Shown one piece after another: positions 1-31,685 of a stretch of DNA of 64,000 nt; the stretch's first letter is position 1; each line of letters starts with the position of its first letter. Source of the stretch: Bradyrhizobium septentrionale. Lineage in GTDB: Bacteria; Pseudomonadota; Alphaproteobacteria; Rhizobiales; Xanthobacteraceae. The stretch covers positions 62,001-126,000 of the forward strand of contig NZ_CP088284.1 of assembly GCF_011516645.4 (NCBI RefSeq), given 5' to 3'. The translations under genes and the position numbers were made by a program. The notes beneath the pieces were generated by a model. It searched no databases, was not told the origin of the DNA, and saw nothing but the letters and a program-made list of their open reading frames with translations.

Positions 1-3000
1 GGCAGCGGGATTATCTGCTGGCGCTGCTGCGGGCGATGGCTGCCGATGCGCAGCAAGAGGTCGGGCGGATTGAGCTGCTGTCGGCCGCCGAGCGCACCTA
101 TCTGCTGGAGGAGCTGAACCGGACGGCGGCACCGTATCCTGCGGACAAGTGCATCCAGGAGCTGTTCGAGGCGCAGGTGCGCAAGGCGCCGGAGGCGGTG
201 GCGCTGGTCTATCAGGACCAGCGCGTAAGCTATGGCGCGCTCAATGCGCACGCCAACCAGCTGGCGCATCATCTGATCGCCCTCGGGGTGAAGCCGGATC
301 AGCCGGTGGCAATCTGCGTTGCGCGCAGTCCGCTGATGGTGGTGGGGCTTTTGGCGATCCTGAAGGCCGGCGGGGCGTATGTGCCGCTGGACCCGGCCTA
401 TCCGTCGGCGCGGTTGCGCCAGGTGCTGGAGGATGCGGCGCCGCGGCTGCTGCTGACCGATGCGGCGGGCCGCGCCGCCTTGGGCGATGTGGGCCTCGAT
501 GCGAGCGTGCTGGAGCTCGATGCGGCGGCACCGGCCTGGGCCAGCCTGCCGGAATCGGATCCGGACCCGCGCGCGCTCGGCCTCACCTCCCGCCATCTCG
601 CCTACGTGATCTACACCTCGGGATCCACCGGTACGCCCAAGGGCGTCATGGTCGAGCATCGGAGCTTGGTCAATTATCTCTCCTGGGCCCGCGATGCGTA
701 CGCTCCCAGATCATCCTCCGTGATTTCCTCGCCTCTGGTCTTCGATGCGACAATCAACAGCCTGTTTGCGCCTCTGATCTGTGGTGGCCATGCATTCCTT
801 ATAAAGGAGAGAGATGAGGTCGAAGGACTCAAAGAGACGGTCCGCTCGGACTGCGGGATCGTCAATATTACCCCGAGCCATCTGAATGCTCTTGGGCAAC
901 AGATGCTAGCGGACTCGGCGCCGAGCCGCGTTGGATTGCTTATCATCGGCGGTGAAGCGCTGTCGCATTCGACAGTGGAGTTGTGGCGCAGGATCCAGCC
1001 CACGGTGAGAATGGTGAACGAGTACGGCCCAACTGAAGCAGTTGTCGGTTGTATCTTCTATGACATTCCGAGAGAGCCATCTCTACCCAGCAACATCCCG
1101 ATTGGCCGTCCGATTGCGAACACGCGTGTGTATCTGCTGGATGGTCATGGGGAGCCGGTGCCGTTCGGGGCGGTGGGCGAGCTCTGCATTGGCGGTGCGG
1201 GGGTGGCGCGGGGCTACCTGAACCGCCCTGAGCTGACGGCGGAGCGGTTCATCGCCAGCCCCTTTGTGGACGGCGACCGGCTGTACCGGACCGGCGACCT
1301 GGCACGCTACCTGGCGGACGGCAATCTGGAGTTTTTGGGGCGCAACGACGAGCAGGTGAAGATCCGCGGCTTCCGGATCGAGCCGGGCGAGATCGCGGCG
1401 CGGCTCCTCGAGCATCCGGCGGTGGGTGATGCGGTGGTGGTGGCGCGCGAGGATGGCCGCGGCGAGCAGCGGCTCGTTGCGTATGTCGTCGCCCCCGAAG
1501 CTGAGGAATCTGATCTTGCCGGGGGTTTGCGCGCACACTTGAGTGCGCGGCTGCCGGACTACATGGTGCCGTCTGCGTTCGTGCGGCTGGCGGGGCTGCC
1601 GCTGACGGTGAACGGCAAGGTCGATCGGAACGCGCTGCCGGCCCCGGGCGAGGAGGCGTATGCGCATCGCGCCTACGCGCCGCCGCAGGGCGAGATCGAG
1701 ACGGCACTGGCAACGATCTGGGCCGAGCTTCTCGGTGTGGAGCGCATCGGGCGCCACGATCACTTCTTCGAACTGGGCGGCCACTCGCTGTTGGCGGTAC
1801 AGTTGATGGAGCTTCTGCGGCGGCGGTCGCTGGGCATCGAAGTGCGCACCCTGTTCGCCCAGCCGGTGCTGGCGGATCTGGCCGCAAGCCTCGGCCACCA
1901 TCAGGAGGTGGCGGTCCCGGCCAACCTGATCACCGAACGGAGTGCGGCGATCACGCCACAGATGCTGCCGCTGATCGAGCTGGCACAGGACGAGATCGAC
2001 CGGATCATCGCCACGGTGCCCGGCGGGGTTGGCAACATCCAGGACATTTACGGCCTGTCGCCGCTGCAGGACGGCATCCTGTTCCATCATCTGCTGGCGG
2101 CAAAGGGCGATCCATACCTGCTGGTATCGCAGATGGCGTTTGCCGAGCGTGGGCTGCTCGAGCGCTATCTTGCCGCGGTCCAGCGGGTGGTGGATCGGCA
2201 TGACATCCTGCGCACCTCGTTTGTCTGGGAGGGGCTGTCGCAGCCGGCCCAGGTGGTGTGGCGGAAGGCGCAACTGGAGGTGACCGAGGTCGAGCTGGAT
2301 GGCGCTCATGGTGCTGGCGCCGAGCAGCTGAGGGAGCGGTTTGATCCGCGCCGGCACCGCATCGAGCTTGGCCGGGCGCCACTGCTGCGGTTTGTGATTG
2401 CGCGCGAGCCCGGCAGCGCGCGCTGGCTGCTGCTGGAGCTGCAGCATCATCTGATCGGGGATCACACCACGCTGGACGTGATGCATGCTGAGGTCCGGGC
2501 CGAGCTGGAGGGGCGCCAGCATGAGCTGCCGGCGCCGCAGCCGTTCCGCAATCTGGTGGCGCAGGTGCATCTACGCGGTGATGCCGAGGCGGACGAAGCG
2601 TTCTTCCGGGAGCTGCTGGCCGACATCGACGAGCCGACCACGCCGTTCGGCTTGAGCGAGGTGCGCGGCGACGGCGGCGGGGTTCGTGAGGCGCATCGGT
2701 TGTTGCCGCCGGCGCTCCATGCGCGGCTGCGGGAACAGGCGCGGCGGCTGGGCGTCAGTCTGGCAAGCCTGTGCCATCTGGCGTGGGGGCAGGTGGTGGC
2801 GCGCAGCAGCGGCCGCGAGCAGGTGGTGTTCGGCACGGTGCTGTTCGGCCGCCTGCAGGGCAACGCCGGCGCCGACCGCGCCATGGGGCTGTTCATCAAC
2901 ACCCTGCCGCTGCGGCTTGATCTTGATGGGACTGCGGTCGAGGCGAGCGTGCGAACCACGCATGCCCGGCTGGCCGAGCTGCTGGCACATGAGCATGCCT

Positions 3001-31685: not shown

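Follow-up and report, generated by a model that had tools for sequence, protein, structure and literature searches.

The mycolactone polyketide synthase (PKS) is plasmid-encoded and is composed of near-identical modules. Together with the syringopeptin nonribosomal peptide synthetase (NRPS), it has been placed at the extreme of concerted evolution by Medema et al. 2014 (PMC4256081), who explained the cluster-specific branching of domains, as seen for daptomycin, A54145 and CDA, by gene conversion. Recombination in the core of the adenylation (A) domain has been described as a hotspot of NRPS diversification, including in the case of hormaomycin (Baunach et al. 2021, PMC8097286; Calcott et al. 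2020, PMC7486941), with breakpoints clustering between motifs A2 and A4 and near A5. Here, we analyzed a 64,000-nt stretch of DNA (the window), which corresponds to positions 62001-126000 of contig NZ_CP088284.1 (C1; 456,902 bases) in the source genome of Bradyrhizobium septentrionale (GCF_011516645.4; 10.4 Mb, four contigs). It carries the greater part of a 13-module NRPS gene, and we consider it very probable that this is a plasmid-borne synthetase whose backbone is homogenized by gene conversion, and whose A-core, from motif A3 to just past A5, is exchanged like a cassette among modules and, at times, among arrays.

Engineers have long asked whether peptide synthetases can be reprogrammed through the substrate pocket alone. 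Crusemann (2013) and Kries (2015) are said, in other papers, to have engineered synthetases by swapping A subdomains. Published pocket swaps succeeded when the subdomains were similar, but in other cases they frequently failed (PMC8616955, PMC7486941, PMC8097286). For the enduracidin synthetase, success was reported above 55% subdomain identity and trouble at 29-44% (PMC8616955). In another study, partial A-domain swaps gave no product (PMC7486941). Genetic repeats of intense nucleotide skews (GRINS) in assembly-line PKSs have been defined in PMC10394414 and PMC9899208, and a plasmid gene-cluster survey describes rhizobial plasmids as rich in biosynthetic clusters (PMC10434180).

Block structure of the array and the variable A-core

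The gene spans approximately 50.8-93.7 kb of C1 and encodes an N-terminal condensation (C) domain, 13 units of an A and a carrier (T) domain, and a thioesterase. The recurring C, A and T domains and the terminal thioesterase identify it as an NRPS, and PF00668, PF00501, PF13193, PF00550 and PF00975 all scored above cut-off in the three window modules searched for them. A search of the PDB sequences returned other A domains only. The window, in which a single open frame runs from 3 to 31685 on the plus strand, covers modules 4-13, i.e., the last 10 of the 13, and the thioesterase; the ten consecutive modules of a preliminary description of this DNA are therefore present in the window, but the array extends upstream to 13. 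Modules were anchored at 102, 3351, 6561, 9810, 13026, 16257, 19455, 22629, 25785 and 29001, with no mismatch in any of the ten anchors. The C blocks that follow the T motif are of two kinds, LCL-type (1488 nt) and dual-type (1548 nt), the latter carrying an HHLxxxxGD motif that we take to mark dual-type C domains. The first C domain of the protein is 99.5% identical in DNA to the internal LCL-type C blocks over 1,317 nt.

When the ten window modules were compared pairwise in bins of 60 columns, all 45 pairs were 100% identical in the seven bins of columns 1-420, and identity was 98.8% and 99.1% in the two bins of 421-540. Mean DNA identity was then 42-56% between columns 601 and 1140, where some bins held fewer than 45 scorable pairs, and 99.1-100% in the nine bins of 1201-1740. 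Relative to the motifs of the A domain (A3 ends at module nt 549, A5 occupies 916-936 and A6 starts at 1075), the divergent core of the source array begins at 558-565 (at 537 where the core is of the Ser type) and extends to 981-1052. The variable segment is thus ~400-500 nt long, reaches from A3 to past A5 and, exceptions in modules 3 and 13 apart, is the sole variation besides the kind of C block. With the same exceptions, the part of A before the core, the part after it together with T, and each kind of C block are ~99.5-100% identical between modules. Near-identical flanks of >500 nt lie on either side of each core (module 3 apart). Without module 3, the median synonymous divergence (dS) was 0.0075 in the block preceding the core (N block) and 0.0063 over the 600 nt from A6 on, and the LCL-type C blocks of modules 3, 5, 9, 10 and 11 were 99.87-100% identical. 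Cores of unlike type (58 pairs) had a median dS of 1.43 and a median nonsynonymous divergence (dN) of 0.75. The exceptions are module 3, a foreign A domain with 66% identity to the others in its N block and 89% in the block following the core (A-Cterm/T), and module 13, whose A-Cterm/T block is 97% identical to the others. Seven core types were distinguished in the 13 modules, with repeats at 99.6-100% identity (1=9, 2=5=13, 4=6, 7=11=12), and one and the same core precedes either kind of C domain (dual-type in modules 7 and 12, LCL-type in module 11).

The preliminary claim of blocks that are near-identical even at synonymous positions is borne out by these dS values. Its block lengths of 568 + core + 672 nt agree with ours to within ~20 nt, and the 60-nt difference between its C blocks (1479 and 1539 nt) is exactly that found here. 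It had confined major variation to the core and the choice of C block, which is correct for most modules, but not for the A domain of module 3 or the A-Cterm/T block of module 13; nor are the cores, however divergent between types, all different from one another.

Could the constancy of the backbone be due to purifying or codon-level selection, without conversion? The A-Cterm/T and C blocks do perform the same catalysis in every module. However, different arrays of one genome differ at a backbone dS of 0.36-0.42 and identity is confined to modules within an array, which argues that synonymous sites are free to drift, and we regard this explanation as extremely unlikely. We give an equally slim chance to a specialized system, diversity-generating or site-specific, that writes the cores as cassettes. 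In its favor, the left edge at module nt 565 is common to most core pairs, and a gene for a reverse transcriptase is located 4.9 kb past the array stop. Overall, however, left edges range over 537-565 and right edges over 964-1052 (module 3 apart), the reverse transcriptase carries a group II intron maturase domain, and the near-identical flanks are sufficient for ordinary recombination.

Examined cores were located through motifs of synthetase modules and lettered A (Ala-like), B (Leu), C (Asx-like), D (Phe), E (Ser), F (Thr), G (Val), I (Gly-like), K (hydrophobic) and S (a type with code DGTKMGHVG); the residue names follow the usual code tables. Pocket codes were extracted by motif with two methods that disagree on one pocket residue, neither being correct for every type; for the Ala-like type, the missing part of the code was read off the translated sequence by visual inspection, and types C and K are uncertain. 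The features in the window are as follows.

3..31685, plus strand: NRPS frame, window part (modules 4-13 and thioesterase), from the open frame and Pfam
102..3350, plus strand: module 4 (A-T-C), core C (Asx-like code, uncertain), dual-type C
666..1144, plus strand: module 4 variable A-core cassette, A3 to beyond A5, approximate edges
1803..3350, plus strand: module 4 C block, dual-type, HHLxxxxGD motif
3351..6560, plus strand: module 5, core F (Thr-like), LCL-type C
3908..4414, plus strand: module 5 A-core cassette, same as in modules 2 and 13, approximate edges
5073..6560, plus strand: module 5 C block, LCL-type, 99.93-100% identical to modules 3, 9, 10 and 11
6561..9809, plus strand: module 6, core C (as in module 4), dual-type C
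9810..13025, plus strand: module 7, core A (Ala-like), dual-type C
10374..10819, plus strand: module 7 A-core cassette, same as in modules 11 and 12, Leu-like at this position in strain S11L, approximate edges
13026..16256, plus strand: module 8, core B (Leu-like), dual-type C
16257..19454, plus strand: module 9, core E (Ser-like, as in module 1), LCL-type C
19455..22628, plus strand: module 10, core D (Phe-like), LCL-type C
22629..25784, plus strand: module 11, core A (as in 7 and 12, other C kind), LCL-type C
25785..29000, plus strand: module 12, core A, dual-type C
29001..31685, plus strand: module 13, core F (Thr-like), and C-terminal thioesterase
30876..31640, plus strand: thioesterase domain PF00975, GYSSG motif

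Upstream of the source array is a gene for a peptidase C39 ABC transporter (L012:6615-8798, minus strand), and in strain 162S2 the array is preceded by a peptidase-domain ABC transporter gene and an HlyD-type gene; the transporter is a possible exporter. The leader of a second synthetase gene is the same as that of the first, with 99.6% identity over 1500 nt (L012:10816-13500 and the module 2/3 junction), so the N-terminal ends of the two genes, perhaps docking regions, have been duplicated too. Downstream, the group II intron reverse transcriptase/maturase gene occupies 36545-38044 of the window and is surrounded by ISL3, IS66 and other transposase genes.

Orthologous arrays in five strains

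Orthologous arrays were compared in the source genome, Bradyrhizobium sp. 2S1, B. septentrionale 162S2, B. barranii 1S5 and B. japonicum S11L. Strains 162S2 and 1S5 originate from Quebec and S11L from Delaware; the record of 2S1 gives no country. Judging from its sequence, C1 is a Bradyrhizobium plasmid or plasmid-like replicon, because window positions 32000-50000 match plasmids of 162S2 (89% covered) and 2S1 (58% covered) at 99.9%. All five arrays have 13 modules and the same order of C types, DLLDLDDDLLLD (D L L D L D D D L L L D), from which we conclude that the array predates the strains. In contrast, the order of the cores is not constant: it reads E-F-K-C-F-C-A-B-E-D-A-A-F in the source strain, 2S1 and 162S2, E-F-D-C-F-C-A-B-E-D-A-A-F in 1S5, and E-F-D-C-F-C-B-B-E-A-D-A-G in S11L. 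The core replacement postulated in the preliminary description is therefore seen directly, at one position between the source strain and 1S5, at 4/13 between 1S5 and S11L and at 5 between the source strain and S11L, all with the C order unchanged.

Module 13 of S11L has an N block of the main-array type (at least 0.990 identical to the other S11L modules, 0.844 to the array on the chromosome-sized contig, C2, of the source genome), whereas its core (0.944) and A-Cterm/T block (0.958) resemble a module of that C2 array, so that it is a hybrid of a main-array N block with a chromosomal-array-like core and A-Cterm/T block. The C2 array, the third in the source genome, comprises five modules at C2:5327000-5342000, is less homogenized (median N-block identity 0.966), and is of a type that resembles the core and A-Cterm/T block of S11L module 13.

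Fixed differences between arrays were counted after leaving out module 3 of the source strain, 2S1 and 162S2 and module 13 of S11L. Between the source strain and S11L, 6/530 columns of the N block and 3/649 of the A-Cterm/T block were fixed for different bases, uniformly over the 12 S11L modules compared. In the N block, module 3 again excluded, per-module medians within the source array were 0.996-1.000, and identities between the two arrays at the same position were 0.979-0.985. Modules are thus more alike within an array than to their positional counterparts in the related array, as expected of concerted evolution.

To follow single substitutions, only like blocks were compared, with module 3 of the source strain, 2S1 and 162S2 and the C block of module 2 removed. 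Nearly every backbone substitution between close strains matched an allele that some sister module had already: 33/33 between the source strain and 2S1, 10/10 between the source strain and 162S2, 29/29 between 2S1 and 162S2, and 58/62 between the source strain and 1S5, against an expectation of 0.4% for random mutation. We conclude that the arrays undergo concerted evolution, with conversion still shifting alleles between modules. Conversion is favored over unequal crossing-over because the number of modules and the C order of the main array are constant.

It is very unlikely that the array arose instead from a single module that was recently amplified in tandem, its pockets having diversified in one episode and conversion having played no part since. 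Such a history would account for the near-zero dS within the array and for its duplicated cores. However, five strains have the same module number and C order, and yet S11L carries array-wide fixed differences, so that its array would have to be the product of a separate amplification that arrived at an identical C order over 13 modules. The unlike cores, near saturation in dS, are also much older than the backbone identity, and the same seven core clades are present in arrays of other genera (see below). The preliminary description had offered recent amplification or continuing gene conversion as origins; conversion accompanied by core replacement stands, and recent amplification alone does not.

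Core genealogy and the occurrence of homogenized arrays

Trees were built from 112 modules of 12 arrays, taken from 167 modules in 19 rhizobial arrays, by a quick method in which long branches between types are to be read with caution. In the N-block tree, the array label changed 12 times (minimum 11) and the core-type label 57 times; eight of the 12 arrays formed one side of a branch and four needed two changes. In the core tree, the relation was reversed, with 50 changes of the array label and 14 of the type label (minimum 14). Types A-G accounted for 102/112 modules, each forming one supported clade in this quick tree and each occurring in more than one genus (Paraburkholderia contributing two modules), and the set of types is common to alpha- and beta-rhizobia. 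The genealogy of the core therefore departs from that of its flanks, while the C-A linker and the Asub-T part are kept, as described for A-core recombination.

In a few of 12 hand-picked pairs of modules from different arrays, the core is far younger than its flanks, which suggests transfer of cores between arrays. Module 4 of the C2 array and module 1 of the main array of the source genome have a core dS of 0.18 and flank values of 0.42 and 0.34; for module 3 of the C2 array and module 1 of Paraburkholderia sabiae (an array with two scorable modules only), the values are 0.14, 0.87 and 0.30. Other pairs show the opposite, for example main-array module 8 and module 2 of a second homogenized array of the source genome, C1b (core 0.63, flanks 0.38 and 0.36).

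Core replacement is seen again, independently, in Sinorhizobium medicae. Strains ml2 and WSM419 each have 16 modules at the same locus, with the words C-C-C-A-I-I-A-S-A-A-F-A-C-C-B-I and C-C-C-S-A-A-I-A-A-C-F-C-C-C-B-I, respectively. The cores differ at 7/16 positions on backbones that are 99.6% identical, with no fixed difference in 489 and 600 columns; for both pairs of strains with differing predicted residues (1S5/S11L and WSM419/ml2), backbone identity is 98-99.6%. The 14, rather than 16, modules of S. medicae ml20 may be real or may reflect a collapsed assembly. In S. meliloti 1132, of which 11 modules were read, N blocks are 99.85% identical to each other and 98.4-98.5% identical to those of S. 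medicae. The S. medicae locus has a LysR gene upstream and, downstream, genes for a conserved hypothetical protein, a ParB-domain protein, a SagB-family dehydrogenase and a phosphopantetheinyl transferase. Of these, the dehydrogenase hints at further tailoring.

How common is such homogeneity? In a survey of a genome collection, the best 78 loci of 591 relatives included 54 with at least three scorable modules. In 49 of these, median N-block identity was 0.55-0.84, from which it follows that the homogeneity of the source array is not due to chance; two loci of Sinorhizobium kostiense had 0.84-0.87, and three, all on plasmids, exceeded 0.99 (B. barranii 1S5 twice and Cupriavidus necator UYPR2.512). 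The 19 rhizobial arrays came from lists sorted by similarity to the source array and some are orthologous, so the 18/19 with median N identities of 0.94-1.00 are no estimate of prevalence. As controls, we took five plasmid NRPS loci from a 60-row spread of 890 records. Four were ordinary (median N identity 0.586-0.617), and the fifth, a six-module array on a plasmid of Methylobacterium phyllosphaerae, had a homogenized N block (median 0.998); the trait is therefore not strictly rhizobial. Homogenized arrays were found in records of Sinorhizobium, Mesorhizobium, Rhizobium, Cupriavidus and Methylobacterium, and N-block-like DNA was present in 37/146 genomes of the genus, the source genome included.

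The C1b array (11 modules read) runs past both ends of C1, whose end and start are 4 nt short of contiguity, and its counterparts in 162S2 and 2S1 also reach the ends of their records. The three records were probably cut or closed inside the C1b repeat, and we dropped its module numbers as evidence. Elsewhere in the source genome, stretches of N of 702 and 2500 bases lie around the 16S region.

A quite unlikely, though slightly more credible, alternative to those above is an artefact, in which repeat copies were collapsed in assembly or overwritten by one consensus in polishing. Variants may be misassigned when near-identical repeats are polished, and such a smear could mimic single-base, small-scale shifts of alleles; single-base indels are indeed present, and the C1b array sits at contig ends in three genomes. 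On the other hand, polishing error would not yield array-wide fixed differences or core swaps, the 13-module order recurs in five assemblies, and homogenized arrays recur in the records of the other genera. In addition, PacBio reads of two related strains, 1S1 and 66S1MB, have mean lengths of 11,635 and 10,294 bp, i.e., about three modules (PMC8374602).

Several observations weigh against conversion with cassette-like core exchange as a complete account. First, cores also change by other means, sister alleles accounting for 6/14 core differences between the source strain and 2S1, 2/6 between the source strain and 162S2, 4/8 between 2S1 and 162S2 and 3/11 between the source strain and 1S5. Second, cores included, sister alleles make up 67/558 changes between S11L and the source strain and 82/667 between S11L and 1S5, so most changes are new, as is expected where array-wide differences have accumulated. 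Third, the assignment of dual-type C domains differs at 5/16 positions between the two S. medicae strains, and exchange is therefore not confined to cores everywhere. Fourth, same-type cores have a median dS of 0 within arrays and 0.42-0.79 between them, core dS was at least 0.4 in 7/12 of the hand-picked cross-array pairs, and core dS between arrays often equals or exceeds that of the flanks; most core types thus look about as old as the arrays and not freely traded between them. Fifth, the related array of Rhizobium sp. 007 is, contrary to expectation, not homogenized (0.613), and identities of no more than 0.94-0.97 were obtained for R. jaguaris, R. leguminosarum Vaf10 and the C2 array of the source genome. 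Finally, some copies may be non-functional or misread: the frame is broken in module 3 of the source strain (+1, by an extra base absent in 2S1) and of 162S2 (-1, elsewhere in the module), and modules 7 and 12 of S11L differ in length by single bases.

Proposed mechanism and comparison with described systems

We propose that gene conversion between modules keeps the shared backbone near-identical, and that the long near-identical flanks would in turn enable homologous recombination that swaps A-core cassettes. RecA-type recombination between flanks could thereby convert either backbone or core, and selection would retain different cores where a changed peptide is favored. The predicted product is a peptide of ~13 Ser, Thr, Ala, Leu, Phe and Asx residues, released by the thioesterase and presumably carrying several D residues at epimerized positions before dual-type C domains; from their core words, closely related strains would be expected to produce different peptides. 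More tentatively, and less likely than not, the arrays might be a self-templating means of peptide diversification on rhizobial plasmids, in which conversion continuously reshuffles a common alphabet of about seven cassettes into strain-specific peptides of 13 to 16 residues under diversifying selection, for instance in nodule or soil competition, comparable to antigenic variation of surface proteins. Cassette systems of the antigenic-variation kind have a silent store of unexpressed copies; the cores considered here all came from motifs of synthetase modules.

Such arrays are natural material for the question of pocket-only reprogramming, offering a near-constant backbone that is combined with several divergent cores and with either C type, in series of closely related strains. 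Design rules are directly testable in them, because the same core precedes both C types and different cores precede the same C type. They would also permit the rate and tract length of gene conversion to be measured in a megasynthase. It may be that they are under-seen, since short-read assemblies would break on such repeats; among the survey loci, the modules of S. kostiense are spread over three contigs.

Like GRINS, which are linked to gene conversion, the source array has kilobase-long repeats of high identity in one synthase: 39,750 of its 42,867 nt are >80% identical to another part of the array. GRINS had been suspected here from a GC/AT skew confined to the array. They are defined by GC and TA skews that both exceed 0.15 (or 0.25), and the repeats have mean values of 0.118 and 0.101. 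Among segments of ~500 nt in the array, none had both skews >0.25, and both exceeded 0.15 in ~2,550 of 39,750 nt. Mean absolute TA skew was 0.134 in the repeats vs. 0.130 in the rest of the window, and GC skew 0.132 vs. 0.082. We therefore rejected this assignment.

A published report of homogenized NRPS arrays in rhizobia was not found among the matches listed, which were limited to open-licence papers and are weak evidence of absence, and the term "rhizobi" is absent, by term search, from the main texts of PMC8097286 and PMC7486941. As in the NRPS and PKS clusters presented as cases of concerted evolution, the domains of the rhizobial arrays branch in a cluster-specific manner and the synthases are long and repetitive, the comparison with syringopeptin resting on its published description. 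They differ from the clusters in the part of PMC4256081 considered here in that blocks are ~99-100% identical in DNA over 13-16 modules, that alleles can be seen to move between modules in pairs of strains, and that a hypervariable core with fairly sharp edges escapes homogenization. As in published A-core recombination, it is the substrate-binding part of the A domain that is exchanged while the C-A linker, Asub and T stay. The cases described in those accounts are, however, separate events in known pathways, whereas here entire array families are generally constructed in this way from a common stock of about seven core types, and close strains differ at 4/13 or 7/16 positions. The exchanged piece is, as in engineered subdomain swaps, the pocket-bearing flavodoxin-like subdomain, with the rest of the A domain kept; unlike the published swaps, the rhizobial exchange is natural and repeated, and takes place between core types of only 42-56% DNA identity. 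Concerted evolution, A-core recombination, swap engineering and GRINS are all known; the core alphabet shared between arrays and the series of strains that differ in it look new.

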